Assembly: GCA_019347675.1 (NCBI GenBank)
Contig: JAHWKW010000002.1
Span: forward strand, 124,001-188,000
From: Actinomycetota bacterium
GTDB lineage: Bacteria; Actinomycetota; Nitriliruptoria; Nitriliruptorales; JAHWKO01
Length of the DNA stretch: 64,000 bases
Reading direction: 5' to 3'
Shown in pieces: positions 54,553 to 64,000 of this stretch (position 1 is the stretch's first letter; each line of letters starts with the position of its first letter). Made by a program: the position numbers and the translations under genes. Below the pieces are notes generated by a model, which saw only the letters and a program-made list of their open reading frames with translations, ran no database searches and had not been told where the DNA came from.

Positions 54553-54955
54553 CCCGATCGGTCGCGCCGCACGACGTTATCCGTCGCCGTCGGGAGCGGG
54601 AAGCCACCACGCGGATCGATGCCATGCCGACAGCGCAGATCCAGGAGGCAGCGCGTGCTGGGTCGGACGGCCACTGCGCGCAACTGGAACACCACGACGA
54701 AGCTCGTCGCCATGATGGGGTCCTGACACCCCGCCGTCCTCGCTCGGGCCGCAGGTCGCCTCGCGGGGTGCGGATGCTCTCGGCGCGCGACGTCGAGCAC
54801 GCGTGCCAGCGCCGGCAACGTCGGCGAGACGCTCGCTGGGTTGTCACCGCAGCGAAACCTGGTCGTAGTGGCGGCTAAACAGACGGGTGGCACGGTACGG
54901 GCGGTCGAGCTTGGCAGAAGGCGGTTGGCAGAAGGCGGTTGGCAGAAGGCGAAGT
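54553..54955. other. Intergenic stretch with no supported gene
   Basis: About 400 bases between the pirin start and nnaR. Open frames here on both strands have no family likeness. The last 42 bases contain the 14-bp tandem repeat. The promoters of pirin and of the nitrate operon should lie in it, but I see no clear match. Confidence 0.5.
54911..54952 (+). repeat. Three 14-bp tandem repeats abutting the nnaR start
   Basis: TTGGCAGAAGGCGG occurs at 54911, 54925 and 54939 (last base A in the third). The third copy places AGAAGGCGA just before the GTG at 54956, so the repeat supplies the likely ribosome-binding site three times over. Confidence 0.9.
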
Positions 54956-56065
54956 GTGGAGGGTCTCCGGGTCGGGGTCACGTCGGCCGGCGAGGCTCGC
55001 GAGCTGAGCGGTGCCCTCGAGCGTCGCGGGGCGGTGGTGACCTGGGGGCCGACCGTTGAGGGCCGTGTCGCGACTGGCCGGGACCTGCTGGCTCAGATCG
55101 ATCGTCTGCTCGCGGCCGAGCCATCGTGGGTCGTCGCGTCCACGGGGGTGGGGGTCCGCGCCTGGGCGGAGGTCGCCGAGCGCCACGGCCGGCTCCACCT
55201 GTTGGAGGCGACGCTGCGCCGCGCCCGGGTCGTCGCCCGTCGCTCGAAGGCGTTGGGTGCATTGCGGTGGCTGGGCGTTGACCCCGTGTTCGTGTCTGCG
55301 CAGGAGACCGACGAGGACGTGGCGACGTGGCTGCGCCAGCGGCTTCTGCCCGGGGACCGGGTCGCTGTCCAGGTCCGTGGGGCTGGTTCGCTCGGTGCGT
55401 ATCAGCGACTGGTTGACGCCGGCGGCGAGGTCCTTCCGCTCGTCCCGTGCACCTCGGTCCCGCCCGCCGATCTTCGACCGGCGCGGGAGTTGGTCCGCCG
55501 AGCCTGCGCCGGCGTCGTCGACGTCGTCGTGTGCACGAGCCCGAGCGCGGCAGGCAACCTGATGCGGATCGCGGCAGATATCGGCGTGGAGGGCGCCCTG
55601 GTGACCGCGTTGGGCGAGCGTGTGGCGGCCGCCGCAGTCGGGATGATGACCGCCGCGAGCCTCGAGAACGCTGGCGTCCCCGTCGCGATCATGCCGCCAC
55701 GCCCCCGCACCGGTGAGCTGGTGGGGGCCCTGGGCGGCTGGGCGGCGAGCGGTCGGCAACTGCCCGTTCCGGCCGTGCGCCTGGACCCCGCGGGTCGGGC
55801 CGTCATCGCCGACGGGTGCCGTGTCGAGCTCGGGCACCGGGAATTCGGGGTGCTGGCCGCGCTGGTGCGTCGCCCGCACGTGGCCTGCCGTCTTGATCTC
55901 CTGGCCGTGGAAGCCTGGGGCCACCGAGCCCCGGACAACCCCCGGCTGATCAAGCACCAGGTGGGGCGATTGCGGCGCAAGCTCGGCTGTCACGGCCGGT
56001 CGATCGAGACCGTGCGAGGCGTCGGTTACCGCTACGCGCCGCCGTCAGCAGGCGGTAGCGGGTGA
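54956..56065 (+). CDS. nnaR: NnaR-type nitrate regulator (HemD-like + winged helix)
   Basis: The 369-residue protein fuses a uroporphyrinogen-III synthase-like domain (about 1-265, LRVGVTSAGEARELSGALERR, VVVCTSPSAAGNLMRIAADIGV, VTALGERVAAAA) to an OmpR-type winged helix (about 275-365, LGHREFGVLAALVRRPHVACR, RLIKHQVGRLRRKLG, VRGVGYRYAPP). This matches mycobacterial Rv0260c and Streptomyces NnaR, which activate nitrite/nitrate assimilation with GlnR. It is first in the nitrate operon and overlaps the next gene by four bases. GTG 54956 is used; the frame opens 23 codons earlier through the repeat. Confidence 0.9.
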   Translation: MEGLRVGVTSAGEARELSGALERRGAVVTWGPTVEGRVATGRDLLAQIDRLLAAEPSWVVASTGVGVRAWAEVAERHGRLHLLEATLRRARVVARRSKALGALRWLGVDPVFVSAQETDEDVATWLRQRLLPGDRVAVQVRGAGSLGAYQRLVDAGGEVLPLVPCTSVPPADLRPARELVRRACAGVVDVVVCTSPSAAGNLMRIAADIGVEGALVTALGERVAAAAVGMMTAASLENAGVPVAIMPPRPRTGELVGALGGWAASGRQLPVPAVRLDPAGRAVIADGCRVELGHREFGVLAALVRRPHVACRLDLLAVEAWGHRAPDNPRLIKHQVGRLRRKLGCHGRSIETVRGVGYRYAPPSAGGSG

Positions 56066-56715
56066 GGTTCGGCTACCCGGTCAGTCTCGACGTCGCCGGC
56101 CGCCGCTGCGTTGTGGTGGGCGGCGGCCCGCTGGCGGCGCAGAAGGCCGATGGTCTGCTCGCAGCCGGCGCTCAGGTTGTCGCGATCGCCGCCCGCCCGT
56201 CCCCTGGGCTCCGCGAGGCAGCCGCAGCCGGCCGGATCGAGCTCGTCGCGCGTTGTTTCCGCGCCGGCGACCTGGCGGGCGTCTTCTTGGCCATCGCCAC
56301 TGGCGAGGATCCGGTCAGCAACATCGAGGTGGCGGCGGAGGCCCGGCGGGAACGGGTCCTGTTCAACGCGCTGGACGACGTCGTCCACTGCGACTTCGCC
56401 GCCGCAGCGGTGGTGCGCCGTGGCGAGCTGCGCCTGGCGGTCTCCACCGGGGGAAAGGCTCCGGCGCTGGCCCGGCGGTTGCGCGAGCAACTGGAAGTCC
56501 GCTTCGGCGACGAATGGGGCCAGCTCGTCGAGGTCCTCGACGGCGCACGGCGGGCCTGTCTGCCCCGCACCGTCACGTTCAGCGAGTGGCAGCGCCGCTG
56601 GGCGACGGCGCTGCGCGATCCGCAACGCCTGGCCGAGCGGCTCGCCGCCGGGGACCGCGAGAGTGTGCGCGACGGCGTGCTGCGGGTGATGCGGACGGGC
56701 TCTGGCCCGTCGTGA
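56062..56715 (+). CDS. Precorrin-2 dehydrogenase/siroheme synthase N-domain protein
   Basis: A 217-residue Met8/SirC/CysG-N-like enzyme that oxidises precorrin-2 and may insert iron for siroheme. The NAD site RRCVVVGGGPLAAQKADGLLAAGA, FNALDDVVHCDFAAAAVVRRG and STGGKAPALARRLREQLE are typical. Siroheme is needed by the nitrite reductase that follows, which explains the position. GTG 56062 overlaps nnaR by four bases. Confidence 0.93.
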   Translation: MRFGYPVSLDVAGRRCVVVGGGPLAAQKADGLLAAGAQVVAIAARPSPGLREAAAAGRIELVARCFRAGDLAGVFLAIATGEDPVSNIEVAAEARRERVLFNALDDVVHCDFAAAAVVRRGELRLAVSTGGKAPALARRLREQLEVRFGDEWGQLVEVLDGARRACLPRTVTFSEWQRRWATALRDPQRLAERLAAGDRESVRDGVLRVMRTGSGPS

Positions 56716-56857: not shown

Positions 56858-58558
56858 ATGCCGGTCGCGAACATCCCCGCCGCGAAGCGTGCCGGACTCC
56901 CGGTGGACCTCGACCGGCTCACCGCCGAGGGCGACGACTGGCTGAGCCCCGAACAGCGGTACGCCCTCAAGACCCACGGCGTGTGCGCCCAGTCGCAGCC
57001 CCAGGTGTTCATGGTCCGGGTGCGCAACGGTGGGGATCTCACGGCCGGCCAGGCGTGCGGCCTTGCGGACATCGCCGAGCGGCACGGTCGGGGCTGGCTG
57101 CACCTCACCACCCGCCAGCAGGCCGAACTGCACCACGTCCACGCCACCGAAGTGAACGCCGTGCTCGCCGCCGTCCGCGCCCTCGGGCTGACGACCCGCT
57201 CGACGTGCGGTCACACCGTCCGGGGGGTGATGTGGTGCCCCGACGCCGGCGTTGCCCTGGCCGAGCCGTTCGACTGCGCACCCGACGCCCACGCGATCAC
57301 CGCCGCGGTCCTGGCCCGAACGCCCGACCTGGACACCCAGCTGCCGTCCCGCGTCAACATCCACCTGGGCGGCTGTCCCGCCTGTCGCGACCACGCCCGG
57401 CTCAACGACGCCGGGTTGGTCTCCGTGCTGGGCGCGGGTGGTCAGCCTGGCTACGAGCTGTGGGTCGGCGGGAGTCTGGGACGCTCTGTGCCCACCCTAG
57501 CGGTGAAGGCCCTGGACTTCGTCCCCCGGGCCCACGCGGTCACGGCGGTCACCGCCCTCCTCGACGTCTACATCGCCCACGGCAACTTCGACCAGCCCAA
57601 CAAGGCCCGCATGAAGTTCCTGCTGCGCGACCTTGGCGCCGACCGCTTCCTCGACCTGTTCCGCGCCGCGTACGCCCGGACCTGCCGTCGCCCGCACCCG
57701 CCGCCACCCCAGGTCGAGGTCTCCGACGCCGACCTGGCCGCGGCGGTGCTGGCCCAGGCTCCCGAGGGCGGCTGGTCGCGTGGGGTCCGCCCCCAGCGCA
57801 CGCCCGGCCGGGCCGTGGTCACCGTCGAGATCCCCCTCGGAGACCTCGACGCCGACGACCTGCGCGGCCTGGCTGGCCTCGCCGGGCGGTACGCCGACGG
57901 CGTGCTGCACCTCACCCGCGACCAGGACATCACCCTGCGACACGTACCGCTCGGGGCCGTCCCCGCTCTGCGCGGCGACCTCGGCGACCTGGGCCTTGCG
58001 GTCGCCGGCACCACCGCGGCGCGCGACGTCCGCGCCTGTACCGGAGGTCCGGTGTGCTCGTTGGCGATCACCGCCTCCCAGCAGGTCGCCTGGGCCGTTC
58101 GCTCCAGCCCTGCCCTGGCCCGCAACGGCCACCTGAGGGTGTCCGTCTCGGGCTGCCCCAACGCCTGCGCGCAACAGCAGGTGGCCGATGTGGGGTTCTC
58201 CGGCGGGAAGGTCCACGTGGGCGGCGGGGCTCAGTTGGGCTACCAGGTGTGGCTGGGCGGCGACATCGCGGCGGGCCGGGTCGGGCAGGTGGTGGGCCGG
58301 GTCGCCGAGCGCGACGTGCCAGCGATCACCGAAGCGATCGTCGGGTTGTGGGAGGCGCTGCGGGCCGCCGGCGAGTCGCTGCCCCAGACGGTGACCCGGC
58401 TCGGCCCCGACGCGTTCGCGGCGCACATCGACCGGGTCTTCCGGGGCCGCTGGGAGTCGGGCGCCGAGCCAGGACAACGGCCACGCGCTGCAGGCGACAC
58501 GCCGACAGCCGGCCTCACCCTCGAACCCGACCGGCTCCTACCCCTGGCGGTCGCCTGA
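56858..58558 (+). CDS. nirA: Ferredoxin-type nitrite (or sulfite) reductase
   Basis: A 566-residue siroheme/4Fe-4S reductase. The cluster cysteines are C394 and C400 (ACTGGPVCS) and C433 and C437 (SGCPNACAQQ). The two ferredoxin-like half domains are seen (GWLHLTTRQQAELHHVH and GVLHLTRDQDITLRHVP), as in NirA and plant nitrite reductase. Both nitrite and sulfite are possible from sequence; adjacency to NnaR, NarK and a GlnR-like site favours nitrite. No Cys-Tyr signature of M. tuberculosis NirA is obvious. It is followed by a Rieske gene with overlap. Confidence 0.93.
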   Translation: MPVANIPAAKRAGLPVDLDRLTAEGDDWLSPEQRYALKTHGVCAQSQPQVFMVRVRNGGDLTAGQACGLADIAERHGRGWLHLTTRQQAELHHVHATEVNAVLAAVRALGLTTRSTCGHTVRGVMWCPDAGVALAEPFDCAPDAHAITAAVLARTPDLDTQLPSRVNIHLGGCPACRDHARLNDAGLVSVLGAGGQPGYELWVGGSLGRSVPTLAVKALDFVPRAHAVTAVTALLDVYIAHGNFDQPNKARMKFLLRDLGADRFLDLFRAAYARTCRRPHPPPPQVEVSDADLAAAVLAQAPEGGWSRGVRPQRTPGRAVVTVEIPLGDLDADDLRGLAGLAGRYADGVLHLTRDQDITLRHVPLGAVPALRGDLGDLGLAVAGTTAARDVRACTGGPVCSLAITASQQVAWAVRSSPALARNGHLRVSVSGCPNACAQQQVADVGFSGGKVHVGGGAQLGYQVWLGGDIAAGRVGQVVGRVAERDVPAITEAIVGLWEALRAAGESLPQTVTRLGPDAFAAHIDRVFRGRWESGAEPGQRPRAAGDTPTAGLTLEPDRLLPLAVA

Positions 58559-58929
58559 TGCCAACCCGGCGCAGGCCCGACGCGGTCGTGCTGCCCCTCG
58601 ACGATCTCCCGGTCGGGGTGGCTGTGAGCGTGGCGTGCGGGGATCGGCGCATCACCGTGGTGCGCTGCGGGCCCGACGAGGTCCGCGCGCTCGACGGCGA
58701 CTGCACCCACGCCGCCGGCCCCACCGCCCAGGGCACGGTCGACGGTTGCCTGCTGGCCTGCCCCTGGCACGGCGCCGTCTTCGACGTGCGCACCGGCGAA
58801 GTCCACCGCGGGCCTGCCCGCAAGCCTCTCGCCACCTACCCGACCCGCGTCGAAGACGGCTGGGCCGTGGTGGTGCTGTCGGCCCAGGACGAGACGGTTG
58901 ACGGCGAACCCGAGGTTGCCCGCGGTTGA
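58558..58929 (+). CDS. Rieske [2Fe-2S] protein (NirD-like)
   Basis: A 123-residue Rieske protein with cluster motifs GDCTHAAGP and ACPWHGAVFD. It resembles NirD, the small subunit of NADH-nitrite reductases, or a stand-alone Rieske ferredoxin. As the partner reductase here is the ferredoxin type, this protein could be its electron donor. The ATG shares one base with the nirA TGA. Confidence 0.92.
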   Translation: MPTRRRPDAVVLPLDDLPVGVAVSVACGDRRITVVRCGPDEVRALDGDCTHAAGPTAQGTVDGCLLACPWHGAVFDVRTGEVHRGPARKPLATYPTRVEDGWAVVVLSAQDETVDGEPEVARG

Positions 58930-60458
58930 GGCCGACGCAGCCGGTGGGATGGGCGGAAGTGGCGGTACGGCCACGCGCTCTGCTGTCGTTCCGTGGCCGC
59001 TGGCGGGTGCTGCACCTGACGTGGATGGCACTGTTCCTCAGCTTCCTGGTGTGGTTCAGCTTCGCCCCGTTGGCCACGCAGGTGGGGCGTTCGCTGGGGC
59101 TGACAGCCCCGCAGCTCGCTGCACTGTCGCTGTGCAACGTGGCCCTGACCGTGCCGGGCCGCGTCCTCGTCGGCATGGCGGTGGACCGCTGGGGGTCGCG
59201 GCGAGTGTATGGCGCGGTCCTGCTGTACGCGGCGGTGCCCACACTCGTGTTCGCCACCGCGTCATCGTTTCGGTTGCTGGTGGCCAGCCGGCTCGCCGTC
59301 AGCCTGGTCGGAGCGGGCTTCGTGGCGGGTGTGCGGATGATGGCCGAGTGGTTCCCGCCCCACGAGATCGGCTTGGCTCAGGGCATCTATGGCGGCTGGG
59401 GCAACGCGGGCTCCGCCGCGGCAGCCTTCACCCTCCCGACGGTCGCGGCGATGGTGGGTGGCCCTGAGGGGTGGCGATGGGCCATCGGTACGACCGGGGC
59501 ACTCGCCGCCGTCTACGGGGGGGTGTACCTGCGGGCGGTGAGCGATACCCCCGACGGATCGGCTGACCGGCGCGCCCTTCGGCGAGGTGCGCTCGAGGTC
59601 AACCATCCCGCCGCGGTCGTGGGGGTCGTGGCGCTCCAGGTGCCGCTGGTCGGCGTGCTCGCACTCGTCGCATGGCAGCTCGCCCGGTTGGACCTGCTAC
59701 AGCTCGACGCGCTACGGGCGGTTCTCACCGGCCTGGTTGTGGTGTTCTGCGTGCAGGTGTGGCGGGCCCTGGCCGTCAACCGGCCGGCCCGACGCAGGGC
59801 CCGCGCACCCGACGACGACCGGATCCGGGCCATCGTGACGCTCTGTTTGGCCTACGCCGTGACGTTCGGCTCGGGACTCGCGGTCGTGTCGATGTTGCCC
59901 GGGTTCTTCGCCGACACGTTCGGGCTCTCACCGCTCGTGGCGGGCCTGGTCGTCAGCGCGTACGCCTTCACGAACCTTGTCGCCCGGCCGGCGGGCGGGC
60001 TGTGCAGTGACCTGCTGGGCAGCCGCCAACGGACCCTGCAGGTGGTCCTGGTTGGGCTGGCCGTCGGCTACGCCGGCATGGCATCGGTCCAGCGCAGCTG
60101 GCTGCTTGCCGCCACCGTGGCGGTGGCGAGCTCGTTGTTCGTGCACGCTGGCGCGGGCGCCACCTACGCGATCGTCCCTCTGGTGGAACCCCGGGCGTGC
60201 GGGCAGATCGCCGGCCTGGTCGGGGCCTACGGCAACGTCGGAGCACTGCTGTACCTCGCGCTCCTGCCCATCGTCGGCCCGGCCCGCTTCTTTGCGGTGA
60301 TCGCTGTCTCCGCCGTCGCGGTCGCAGCGTCCTTGCGGTGGCTGCCGGAGCCGCAGGCCGCCGGCCTTACCGACCGCCGACTGTCTCGCACGGCGCCCCT
60401 CCCGGCTGGGACCGCGCCGCTACCGGAGGCCGTCGCCTGCCCCGAGGGACGACCGTGA
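58926..60458 (+). CDS. narK: NarK-type nitrate/nitrite transporter (MFS)
   Basis: A 510-residue major facilitator protein with 12 helices. The nitrate signature appears as GIYGGWGNAGSAAAAFTLP, and motif A as GMAVDRWGSRR. Residues near 170 and 410 show the expected Gly-rich regions. TTG 58926 overlaps the Rieske stop; GTG 58962 is an alternative. It should import nitrate or exchange nitrite. It has a 30-residue central loop rich in Arg. Confidence 0.9.
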   Translation: MRPTQPVGWAEVAVRPRALLSFRGRWRVLHLTWMALFLSFLVWFSFAPLATQVGRSLGLTAPQLAALSLCNVALTVPGRVLVGMAVDRWGSRRVYGAVLLYAAVPTLVFATASSFRLLVASRLAVSLVGAGFVAGVRMMAEWFPPHEIGLAQGIYGGWGNAGSAAAAFTLPTVAAMVGGPEGWRWAIGTTGALAAVYGGVYLRAVSDTPDGSADRRALRRGALEVNHPAAVVGVVALQVPLVGVLALVAWQLARLDLLQLDALRAVLTGLVVVFCVQVWRALAVNRPARRRARAPDDDRIRAIVTLCLAYAVTFGSGLAVVSMLPGFFADTFGLSPLVAGLVVSAYAFTNLVARPAGGLCSDLLGSRQRTLQVVLVGLAVGYAGMASVQRSWLLAATVAVASSLFVHAGAGATYAIVPLVEPRACGQIAGLVGAYGNVGALLYLALLPIVGPARFFAVIAVSAVAVAASLRWLPEPQAAGLTDRRLSRTAPLPAGTAPLPEAVACPEGRP

Positions 60459-61060
60459 GGCGCCGTGACGACGCGTCGCAGACAGGATCCCGCCGCGACG
60501 GCGAGATCCGTCGGGTGCAGCGGCCGCTGGACGACCTCCCCGTGGTGCACCTCGAAGCGAGCGTCCCGATGGTGCCCGCGGAACGCTGGACCCTCACCCT
60601 CGACGGTCACGTGGAACGGCCCCAGGTGCTCGCGCTCGCGGAGGTGATCGTGCTGGAGTCGTTCGCAGCCAATTGGAACTTCCACTGCGTGTGGGGATGG
60701 AGCCGGCCGCTGTGCCGGTGGAGCGGCGTCAGTGGCCAGGCAGTCGCTGCGGCGGCAGGGATCAGCAGCCCGTACGTCGTCGTTTCCGCCTTCGGAGGGA
60801 CCTACGCCAGCGCCCTCACCACCGACGAGTTCGTCCGCGGCCTCTTCGCAACCCACCTCGACGACCGGCCGTTAACCCCCGAGCACGGCGCCCCCTTGCG
60901 CTACGTCCCGCCGCCCGGGAAGTGGCAGTACAAGGGAGTGAAGTGGGTAGCGCGAGTCACCGCCACGACCGAGTTCACGCCCGGCTTCTGGGAAACCGCG
61001 GTCGGCGATCCCCGCGGCGACATCCCCCCCGACCGAGAGGATCTGCGCCATGAAATCTGA
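60455..61060 (+). CDS. Sulfite-oxidase-family molybdopterin protein (COG2041-like)
   Basis: A 201-residue SUOX-fold protein. The Mo-ligand Cys is in NFHCVWGWSRPLCRWSGV, the usual F-H-C-V-x-x-W-S pattern with the W-x-G-V after it. The C-terminal part keeps GAPLRYVPPPGKWQYKGVKWV and the TPGFWET signature. It is only a single domain, with no dimerisation domain and no heme domain. It overlaps narK by four bases, inside a nitrate operon lacking a standard nitrate reductase. Function: a molybdenum-dependent oxidoreductase; nitrate as substrate is inference. Confidence 0.85.
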   Translation: MRRRDDASQTGSRRDGEIRRVQRPLDDLPVVHLEASVPMVPAERWTLTLDGHVERPQVLALAEVIVLESFAANWNFHCVWGWSRPLCRWSGVSGQAVAAAAGISSPYVVVSAFGGTYASALTTDEFVRGLFATHLDDRPLTPEHGAPLRYVPPPGKWQYKGVKWVARVTATTEFTPGFWETAVGDPRGDIPPDREDLRHEI

Positions 61061-61373
61061 CCCGACCGCCCTGGCCGCTCTCGAGTCGCCGCCCCGCAAA
61101 CCTGGCGCTCCCACCGCGGCGGCGCTCTTCGCGGCCGATGACGCTCCCCGCGTCACGCTGGCGGAGCGGGCAGCCCGCACGGACGAGCGGAACCGCGACT
61201 GCCGCTCGTGCCCCGCCTTCACCCCCGCACCCTGCGGACTGGCCTACGGCTGGTGCCGGGCCCACGACATGTACGTCAAGCTCTACCACCCACCGGGCGG
61301 CTTTTACTCCCAGTGCCAGTTCAAGGTGCTCACTCGGGTCGTGGGCGCGCCGAAACGCAGCCGCCACAGCTGA
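61050..61373 (+). CDS. Cys-rich protein, unknown
   Basis: A 107-residue protein with a disordered N-terminal half and a compact C-terminal part carrying five cysteines: CRSC, a Cys nine residues later, one six after that (YGWC), and one in YSQCQF. Eleven bases overlap the molybdoprotein gene, so the two are co-translated. The pattern could hold an Fe-S cluster or zinc, and the gene may supply an electron-transfer partner. I do not recognise the family. Confidence 0.75.
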   Translation: MKSDPTALAALESPPRKPGAPTAAALFAADDAPRVTLAERAARTDERNRDCRSCPAFTPAPCGLAYGWCRAHDMYVKLYHPPGGFYSQCQFKVLTRVVGAPKRSRHS

Positions 61374-61520
61374 CTGATCACGGTGAGCGAGGCGGTCCCG
61401 GCGCTCGCGGTTGTCGAGTGAGCGCGGCCGTCGGATGGTCTCCTCCCAGCCAGTGTCGTAACGATCCCGTCACTCCGTGCGTAGCGTCGGGTCGTCGTCG
61501 ATGCACAGAGAGGCGGGTCC

Positions 61521-62835
61521 ATGTCGTGGGGACCGGTCGTACGGCCCGGAGGGGGTCCGCAAGACCTACCGCAGCGGAACCGACGTTCCGGCGCCGCGCG
61601 GGGTCGACCTGGACGTGCACCGCGGGGAGATGCTCCCGATCGTCGGCGCGTCCGGGTCGGGCAAGACCACACTGCTGAACTGCCTGTCGGGTTTGGGCTG
61701 GACCTGGCCGACCTGGATGACGCCGCGCGCACCGACCACCGCGCGCCCACATGGGGTTCATCTTCTAGGCGCTCAACCTGTTGCCGGTGTTGAGTGCGGT
61801 GGAGAACGTGGAGTTGCCGCTGCTCAACCTCGGCTGGCGTCCCCGAGAGGCGCGGGCGGTCGCGGTGAGCCTGCTCGAGCGGGTGAGCCTGCGGCCCGTG
61901 CGAACCACCGACCGAACGAGCTGTCCGGTGGCGAGCAGCAGCGCGTGGCCGTGGCCCGGGCGCTCGTGCACGCACCGGCGGTGATCTGGACGGACGAACC
62001 GACCGGCAACCTCGACAGCGCGGCCACCGACGGGGTGATCCAGTTGCTGGTTGATCTGGTCGCGGGCGGCCACACGGTTGTCCTCGTCACCCACGATCTC
62101 GGCCTCGCACGCCGGGCGTCGCGTGTGGTGGAGGTGCGAGACGCACGGTCGTCGGCACCGACGCGGCGACGGTCCCGGCGTGATCGCGGCCCTCGCAGTC
62201 GCCGGCTTCCTGGTCGGCCACCTGGGCCTGGTCGTCGTCGCACTGCGGCGGCGGTTCGTCGCTCGTCTGGCCGTGCGTGAGGTCGGGCGCCGCCACTGGC
62301 AGTCGCTGCTCGTGGTCATTGGGTTGGCGATCGGCTCGGTGGGCATCACCGCGGCGCTGATCGCCGCTGACGCCGTGGACGAGTCCGCCGTGCTCAACGC
62401 GTACCGGACCTGGGCGGGCACTGACCTGGTCGTCGTCGCACCCGACGGCGCGTCCTTCCCCGGCGAGGTGGTCGACCGACTCGCAGAGCATCCCGAGGTG
62501 GCCGCGCGCACCGGCGGGTTGCAGCGTGGTCTTGAACTCGTCGTCCCGGTCGTGAACCCGTCGGCGCGCTGTCCCCGGGGATCGGCTGTCGCTCGCACTG
62601 CCGACCGGTCCGCAAGAGGTCACCGTCGCCGGGGCCGTCCGCGCGGAGGGCGCCGGGGCGTACGGCCTCCGCCCCGCGGTGCACGCTCCGCTCGCTCGGC
62701 GGCGTGCTGGCCCTGTGCTACAGCTCGGTGCTGCTGGTCCGGTCGTGCCGGCGTGGCGAGCGTCGCGGCTGGTCCCCGTGGAGGCCATCCGCGCTATCCC
62801 CCGAGCGCAGCGGCCCGCCTGGGTCCTCCTATGCT
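61521..62835 (+). pseudogene. Decayed ABC transporter (ATPase and FtsX-type permease)
   Basis: Fragments of a MacB/LolD-type ATPase are spread over frames: [20 protein letters not shown] and Walker [14 protein letters not shown], then GFIF[20 protein letters not shown] where the Q-loop Gln is a TAG (61766-61768), then [15 protein letters not shown] and [12 protein letters not shown] in yet another frame. A permease N-terminus follows ([20 protein letters not shown] through TWAGTDLVVVAPDG), breaks near 62560, and only its end, VVPAWRASRLVPVEAIRAI, remains near 62755. Most of the permease middle is deleted. Three or more lesions make this a true pseudogene. Confidence 0.85.
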
Positions 62836-62842
62836 CGCCGGG

Positions 62843-63066
62843 ATGGATCGGCGGCGGGTGACCTCTGGCTCGCCCTATGAGTCCCAGTTCGGCTTCAGCC
62901 GAGCGGTCCGGACGGGCGGTCGCGTGCTCGTGTCCGCAACCGCCCCGATCTTCCCTGCACGGGTCGTGCCCCGACAACGTCGGTCCGTCAGGTCCGCCGC
63001 TGCTGCGAGATCATCGTTACTGCGCTGGCCGACGTCGGAGCCCGACCCGTCGCCACGGTCGCCTGA
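62843..63066 (+). pseudogene. RidA/YjgF-family gene, frameshifted remnant
   Basis: From ATG 62843 the frame reads RRRVTSGSPYESQFGFSRAV and VLVSATAPIFP, typical of the start of RidA-like enamine deaminases. The frame is then lost near 62950: the rest appears as SCPDNVG in one frame and VRQVRRCCEIIVTALADVG in another, ending at TGA 63064. Family members are about 130 residues, so most of the length is present but disrupted, with the C-terminal R-x-x-x region missing. RidA removes reactive enamines. Confidence 0.65.
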
Positions 63067-63075
63067 CAGCAACGG

Positions 63076-64000
63076 TCACGGCCCGGTCACCTGCTCCGTG
63101 GGCTCGGCCGTGCGGAGGTCGGCAGCAGGATGGTTGCGGATCACGCCCAGCGCGCCGAGACCGGCGAACAGCACCCCGAGGGCGGTGAGCGGCATCCCCG
63201 CGGTCTGGGCGGGGTCGTACAGCCCGCCGGCGAGTAGGAGCCCGATCCCCGCGGTGGTGGCCACCACCCCGACCGCGGCGCGGATCCGTCCCGGCCGCGA
63301 CCGTGGCTCGCCGACCCGCTCGAACCTGGCGAACACTCGGACGAGGACGACCAGCACCAATCCACAGAGGACCACCCACAGCGGCCGGAGCAACCACCAG
63401 CGCAGGTCCGCGACGCCCGTCTCTGGCCAGATACCGGTCGGGATCGTCAACGCAGCCACGACCACGAGCGCGGTCTGGTGCCAGAGGTAGACGGTCATGG
63501 CCACCGCCCCGGCCGCAACCACCCACGCCCATGTCCTGGTGCGGCGAAGCCATCGCTCGACCGGATCGCGGACCGCAGCGACGACGCCGAACTGTGCGAC
63601 TCCCAGGACGAACAGGGCGATCGACGTCGGCGAGTTGTTGCTGCGCTGTCCAGGTTCGATCCCGATCATCGCGACGGGGTAGCCGCCGACCGTGGTCAGA
63701 AGAGCCAGCACCGCGTAGCCACCGAGGGCCAGGCCCACGGCCCCCAACGAGCCCGGGAGACGGCTGTCGTACCAGAAGTACCCGAGCTGGTGGACGGCTG
63801 CCCACACCCAGAAGAAGTTCGTGTACCCCACGACCGGGGTACCTGACAGGTGCGCCGCGTCCACGGCGACGGCCACGGCGACCAGGCCGACGAGCGCGCC
63901 CAGCCCCCAGCGACGATGGGCGGCGAACGTGGGTCGCGCGGCAGCGACCACGAGGACGTACGCAGCCAGGAACCAGGCGGGAATGAACGCGACCTGGCTC
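63076..64000 (-). CDS. Acyltransferase-3 family membrane protein, partial
   Basis: The frame is open from the right edge of the window (SQVAFIPAWFLAAYVLVVAAARPTF) and ends at 63076, giving more than 300 residues of the C-terminal part. At least eight helices are visible. Motifs such as FWYDSRLPG and MTVYLWHQTALV fit the OafA/acyltransferase-3 fold, which transfers acyl groups to envelope glycans. The start and catalytic His-containing N-terminus lie outside the window. Confidence 0.8.
   Translation of the reverse strand, partial: SQVAFIPAWFLAAYVLVVAAARPTFAAHRRWGLGALVGLVAVAVAVDAAHLSGTPVVGYTNFFWVWAAVHQLGYFWYDSRLPGSLGAVGLALGGYAVLALLTTVGGYPVAMIGIEPGQRSNNSPTSIALFVLGVAQFGVVAAVRDPVERWLRRTRTWAWVVAAGAVAMTVYLWHQTALVVVAALTIPTGIWPETGVADLRWWLLRPLWVVLCGLVLVVLVRVFARFERVGEPRSRPGRIRAAVGVVATTAGIGLLLAGGLYDPAQTAGMPLTALGVLFAGLGALGVIRNHPAADLRTAEPTEQVTGP

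Follow-up and report, generated by a model that had tools for sequence, protein, structure and literature searches.

A short sulfite-oxidase-fold molybdoprotein and its four-cysteine partner are a candidate nitrate reductase in a nitrate operon of an actinobacterium

The described nitrate reductases of bacteria, assimilatory as well as respiratory, are bis-MGD molybdopterin enzymes with Fe-S clusters (PMC7816997). The assimilatory forms NasA and NarB are molybdopterin/[4Fe-4S] proteins of about 700 aa that carry PF00384 and belong to the DMSO-reductase family, the fold of which is unrelated to that of the sulfite oxidases (SUOX). Eukaryotic nitrate reductase, in turn, has been reported to occur only in eukaryotes and to have arisen from their own SUOX (PMC6400420). 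The sulfite oxidase family also includes "uncharacterized, single-subunit, cytoplasmic enzymes" (PMC7759655), and our search of the open-access literature did not turn up a bacterial nitrate reductase of the SUOX family.

The locus described here lies in a stretch of 64 kb, which was analysed as a whole and is called the window below. It carries genes in the order nnaR-cysG-nirA-Rieske-narK-SUOX-CysR, the last of them encoding a small protein with four conserved cysteines. With a probability of roughly 60%, we propose that SUOX and CysR together form an assimilatory nitrate reductase of two cytoplasmic proteins, which stands in for NasA/NarB, with the four-Cys protein as its electron carrier. 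We lean, a little more cautiously, towards the wider view that a bacterial assimilatory nitrate reductase outside the DMSO-reductase family exists, composed of a SUOX protein of about 200 residues and a four-Cys carrier of about 90-107 residues, independent of the eukaryotic enzyme in origin and able to replace NasA. What speaks against the proposal is that the pair was encountered in three genomes, two of them without NarK. Altogether, we regard the pair as a strong candidate for a bacterial nitrate reductase of a new kind, and one that can be tested. The features of the locus are as follows.

54843 to 54858, + strand: putative GlnR-box-like site GTCACCGCAGCGAAAC, upstream of nnaR (pattern GTNAC-N6-GNAAC)
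54887 to 56065, + strand: nnaR-type regulator (Pfam HEM4, 82.5 bits; Trans_reg_C, 52.4 bits)
56062 to 56715, + strand: precorrin-2 dehydrogenase / CysG N-terminal part, siroheme synthesis (TIGR01470, 133.5 bits, cut-off 62.3)
56858 to 58558, + strand: nirA, siroheme/[4Fe-4S] nitrite reductase (Pfam NIR_SIR; nearest solved structures are plant ferredoxin-nitrite reductases)
58558 to 58929, + strand: Rieske [2Fe-2S] protein, NirD-like or ferredoxin (from the gene caller; Pfam Rieske, 52 bits on the scanned part 58633-58929)
58926 to 60458, + strand: narK, nitrate/nitrite MFS transporter (TIGR00886, 289.7 bits, slightly below the cut-off of 311.7)
60455 to 61060, + strand: short SUOX-fold molybdoprotein of 201 aa, candidate catalytic subunit of a nitrate reductase (PF00174, 75.8 bits, cut-off 24)
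61050 to 61373, + strand: CysR, four-Cys partner of 107 aa with invariant Cys, candidate electron-transfer subunit, always directly 3' of the SUOX gene

The SUOX reading frame extends from a GTG at 60455 to a TGA ending at 61060 and overlaps narK by 4 bp (GTGA); that of CysR extends from an ATG at 61050 to a TGA ending at 61373 and overlaps the SUOX gene by 11 bp. Shine-Dalgarno-like sequences, GAGGGA and GAGAGGA, precede the two starts. These overlaps and ends agree with the preliminary description, which had placed both genes here in co-translation with narK and had noted that the operon contains no large molybdopterin nitrate reductase; none is indeed present among the called genes of the 50-64 kb part of the window. 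Since homologues of both occur in two other genomes in the same order, with tight spacing or overlap, both reading frames are, as judged from sequence, real genes. For nnaR, the start chosen by the gene caller (54956) is more likely than 54887. The pattern used for the site upstream of it follows the GlnR-box consensus; three exact matches were found in 64 kb versus 1.34 expected by chance, and only one of them belongs to the nitrate operon. The putative box at 54843 is thus supportive, not proof, of a nitrogen-regulated operon. In front of the operons of relatives, GlnR-like sequences turned up solely as relaxed matches, about as often as chance predicts. NnaR itself combines a HemD-like part with a winged helix and has a role in nitrate/nitrite use (PMC6277429).

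PF00174 (Oxidored_molyb) is the only Pfam domain in the 201 aa of SUOX, and reading of the sequence revealed neither another redox domain nor an evident export signal. In these respects the protein resembles the YuiH-like short SUOX proteins, 29 of which were sampled from relatives; the label stands for a presumed likeness to B. subtilis YuiH, not for a comparison with the YuiH sequence. Both kinds of protein are about 200 aa long and share the HG-P-R and K-x2-KW motifs, and the HC dipeptide at 77-78, with Cys78 as the Mo ligand predicted by homology, is invariant in all 29 and in the three SUOX proteins discussed here. The alignment shows that the latter retain H77-C78, H144-G145, R149, K160 and K163-W164. 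They differ from the YuiH-like proteins by fixed replacements: T to W80, two residues past the Mo Cys, VP to PPP (152-154), and Y to W157, W to Y159 and S to G161, which turn Y-x-WKS into W-x-YKG; the GYH motif is gone. The protein thus lacks the HCVTxW, VVPxxYxWKS and GYH motifs of the 29 sampled rows, and it falls outside their clade. These fixed differences around the pocket suggest that it was remodelled while the Mo site was kept, which argues for a changed substrate; the residues do not identify nitrate as that substrate, and no signature predicting it was found in the SUOX sequence. A model obtained with AlphaFold2 from a two-sequence alignment was too poor for inspection of the pocket (pLDDT 32.5).

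In the tree, the three SUOX proteins form one clade with support of 100/100. A profile built from them (A1) scored 334-392 bits in the three carriers and 129 bits at the next best place among 397 Actinomycetota genomes. The clade and the score gap rule out an ordinary YuiH-like orthologue, and by these measures the SUOX of the pair is a discrete group rather than a dispersed housekeeping type; unlike the YuiH-like proteins, it is tied to nirA and to a four-Cys partner. One of the carriers (G234) additionally encodes a second short SUOX protein (G234:C59:2611-3102), which scores like the ordinary YuiH-like group and is a paralogue coexisting with the nitrate-operon type. As for eukaryotic nitrate reductase, with which the preliminary description had drawn an analogy, it shares the PF00174 fold and the proposed reaction, but SUOX has none of its further domains (Mo-co dimerisation, cytochrome b5, FAD/NADH) and no CAGNRR-type motif; this part of the earlier proposal is not supported, and by sequence the protein is nearest to the short cytoplasmic SUOX group, not to the eukaryotic enzyme. 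The best NCBIfam model is that of MsrP/YedY, another SUOX fold without the dimer domain, which matches at 41.8 bits, far from the cut-off of 207 (NF003767). MsrP is periplasmic, has a Tat signal and works with the heme partner MsrQ.

In known SUOX systems, the electron donor is a heme domain or subunit. The short SUOX has no redox domain of its own beyond Mo, and therefore would need a donor from outside, for which CysR is a natural candidate. Its motif, C51-x2-C54-x14-C69-x19-C89, has all four Cys invariant in the three homologues (3/3) and corresponds to the CX2CXnCXnC pattern of small [4Fe-4S] HiPIP-like carriers, so that CysR may hold such a cluster. Small accessory proteins with this pattern and a HiPIP-like [4Fe-4S] fold are known from BSS, MASS and HPAD (PMC12358834), but CysR has no detectable sequence similarity to these subunits or to any other family. 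Searches of CysR against Pfam, NCBIfam and PDB returned nothing credible, and relatives were found neither in plasmids nor in viral contigs; Kelch-repeat matches of a trimmed query were rejected as repeat artefacts. AlphaFold2 modelling of CysR from two sequences gave a model of unusably low confidence (pLDDT 43.8).

The proposed pathway would start with the import of nitrate via NarK. The short SUOX, binding Moco through Cys78, would then take one oxygen atom off nitrate, with electrons fed in by the co-translated CysR, which is probably a small [4Fe-4S] (HiPIP-like) carrier and might itself be charged by ferredoxin or by the Rieske protein of the operon. Siroheme-bearing NirA would convert the resulting nitrite to ammonium, and NnaR, together with GlnR, would turn the operon on under nitrogen limitation. 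If this is true, a bacterial SUOX nitrate reductase of about 300 residues encoded by two genes would represent a second invention of the reaction on that fold, and a function would be assigned to a branch next to the uncharacterised cytoplasmic SUOX proteins (PMC7759655). It would also mean that surveys based on nasA/narB undercount nitrate-assimilating bacteria.

Credible CysR matches were obtained in three of the 397 Actinomycetota genomes searched: the host genome, G146 and G234. The latter two represent two genera of one family, in a class other than that of the host, and CysR searches of both classes revealed no further carriers. Weak matches of query P0002 in G287 and G412 (E about 4e-4), which are interrupted by stop codons, were not counted. 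A scan of genome contigs with two strict peptide patterns, which diverged members may escape, returned one locus, located in the G234 genome. Identities to the host proteins are 46-47% for SUOX and 48-49% for CysR. In both G146 and G234, the order is SUOX, CysR, nirA, Rieske, and the genes overlap or follow each other closely (the SUOX gene of G234 lies near a contig end); the pair is thus located 5' of nirA there versus 3' of narK in the window. The conserved neighbourhood with nirA and narK, which the preliminary description had suggested as a check, was confirmed for nirA only: a NarK homologue is absent from both genomes (G234 gives only a 28% match, E 9e-4), nor is there an nnaR next to the pair. 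SUOX proteins of this type were not found away from nitrogen genes, as the pair is linked to nirA-Rieske in 3/3 carrier genomes. The NirA proteins of the three carriers do not form one clade (4% of bootstraps). Together with the single SUOX clade, this indicates that the SUOX-CysR unit has in part evolved independently of nirA.

Relatives from the class of the host are informative about the place which the pair occupies. NirA orthologues with 57-65% identity are present in G046, G040, G050 and G054, and a partial copy in G059. In G046 (65%) and G040 (61%), NasA is located beside narK-nnaR-nirA-Rieske; the host pair thus occupies the place of NasA in the corresponding cluster, and would carry out the same step of the pathway. 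On the other hand, G054 has nirA-Rieske-nnaR, and G050 (L084, G050:C15, 4501-8461) has nirA-Rieske-FNT-nnaR, a nitrite-only arrangement in a genome where no nitrate reductase was found, showing that nirA without nitrate reductase can be normal. It is conceivable that the host operon serves only nitrite or another nitrogen compound. NarK would then be a nitrite importer, and SUOX-CysR some other redox or oxygen-transfer enzyme linked with the reduction of nitrite; it might, for instance, act on another N-oxide or oxyanion as a reductase, or protect NirA. The G050 arrangement is in accord with this, and so are G146 and G234, in which the pair and nirA occur without NarK, and where FNT-family channels could handle nitrite in its place. 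However, this explanation leaves both the host NarK and the position of the pair at the NasA place of relatives without a reason, and the context points to no other substrate, so that we consider it unlikely. The host genome also contains four FNT-family (formate/nitrite) transporter genes, on contigs C22, C6, C17 and C10.

Less probable still is that SUOX acts on sulfite or other sulfur compounds, with the siroheme enzyme being a sulfite reductase or one that has to be shielded from sulfite. The best-known reactions of this fold family are the oxidation of sulfite and the reduction of methionine sulfoxide, in line with the sub-threshold MsrP match, and the host genome encodes a single protein of the NirA/Sir type at E<=1e-30. 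Yet models of SorA, SorT and SoxC gave no more than 14.8-17.9 bits for SUOX versus NCBIfam equivalog cut-offs of 420-600. Among solved structures, the siroheme enzyme comes closest to plant ferredoxin-nitrite reductases (3e-37 to 2e-31); the match to E. coli sulfite reductase is much weaker (6e-13). NirA keeps the Asn of the LPRKWN motif, as LPSRVN, and has the CX5C and CX3C cluster ligands. This Asn distinguishes nitrite from sulfite reductases, and the protein looks like a nitrite rather than a sulfite reductase. Moreover, it is flanked by narK and an nnaR-type gene, and its orthologues adjoin NasA in relatives.

The nitrate-reductase reading of the pair finally depends on whether a canonical enzyme is encoded elsewhere in the host. 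No NasA/NarB/NarG (PF00384/PF01568/PF04879) was detected in the host assembly or in the SUOX-CysR pair itself: PF00384 matched NuoG on contig C4 and formate dehydrogenase on contig C2 (0/3 matches inside the window), and the NasA of a same-class relative, used as query, returned these again and nothing further. The presence of narK and nirA in an assembly without NasA/NarB/NarG leaves a metabolic gap. The host assembly is a draft of 3.49 Mb in 76 contigs with 96.7% completeness, and a canonical NasA could hide in an assembly gap, the SUOX pair being accessory. However, NasA was not found in G146 and G234 either. All three carrier assemblies are drafts (94-97% complete), and at a gap chance of about 3-6% per gene, a rough figure taken from completeness, all three copies would be missing in about 1 of 10,000 cases, which makes a hidden NasA very improbable. 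We give equally little credence to nitrate reduction by the sole other SUOX protein of the host, a full-length one (364-372 aa) that shares PF00174 and the Mo-co dimer domain with plant nitrate reductase (PMC6400420), or by the formate dehydrogenase next to it, as roughly 100 kb separate this locus (G000:C2:77.7-81.2 kb) from the nitrate operon and no adjoining nitrogen gene was seen.

With respect to gene content and context, namely the lack of a canonical enzyme and the linkage to nirA, the original idea of a SUOX-fold enzyme and a Cys-rich partner replacing nitrate reductase is considerably strengthened; its kinship is corrected to a new branch beside the short SUOX proteins, and the substrate, the direction of the reaction, the Fe-S content, the electron route and the regulation are inferred.

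A few further observations were made in these genomes. The formate dehydrogenase of the host (G000:C2:77761-81150; L001, L004), located outside the window, contains one in-frame TGA where selenocysteine is usually encoded, and similar matches with a TGA are also present in G146, G234 and many relatives. In G146, locus L046 (G146:C23, 778-3321, - strand) encodes an 847-aa protein of the DMSO-reductase family, which was considered as a nitrate reductase but aligns with only part of NasA, at 32% identity, and is left unassigned. Just 3' of the nitrate operon, at 61477-63490 (+ strand) of the window, remnants of an ABC exporter, with a LolD-like ATPase and an FtsX-like permease, were recognised by eye; the reading seems to switch frames there, and the region resembles a decayed gene pair.
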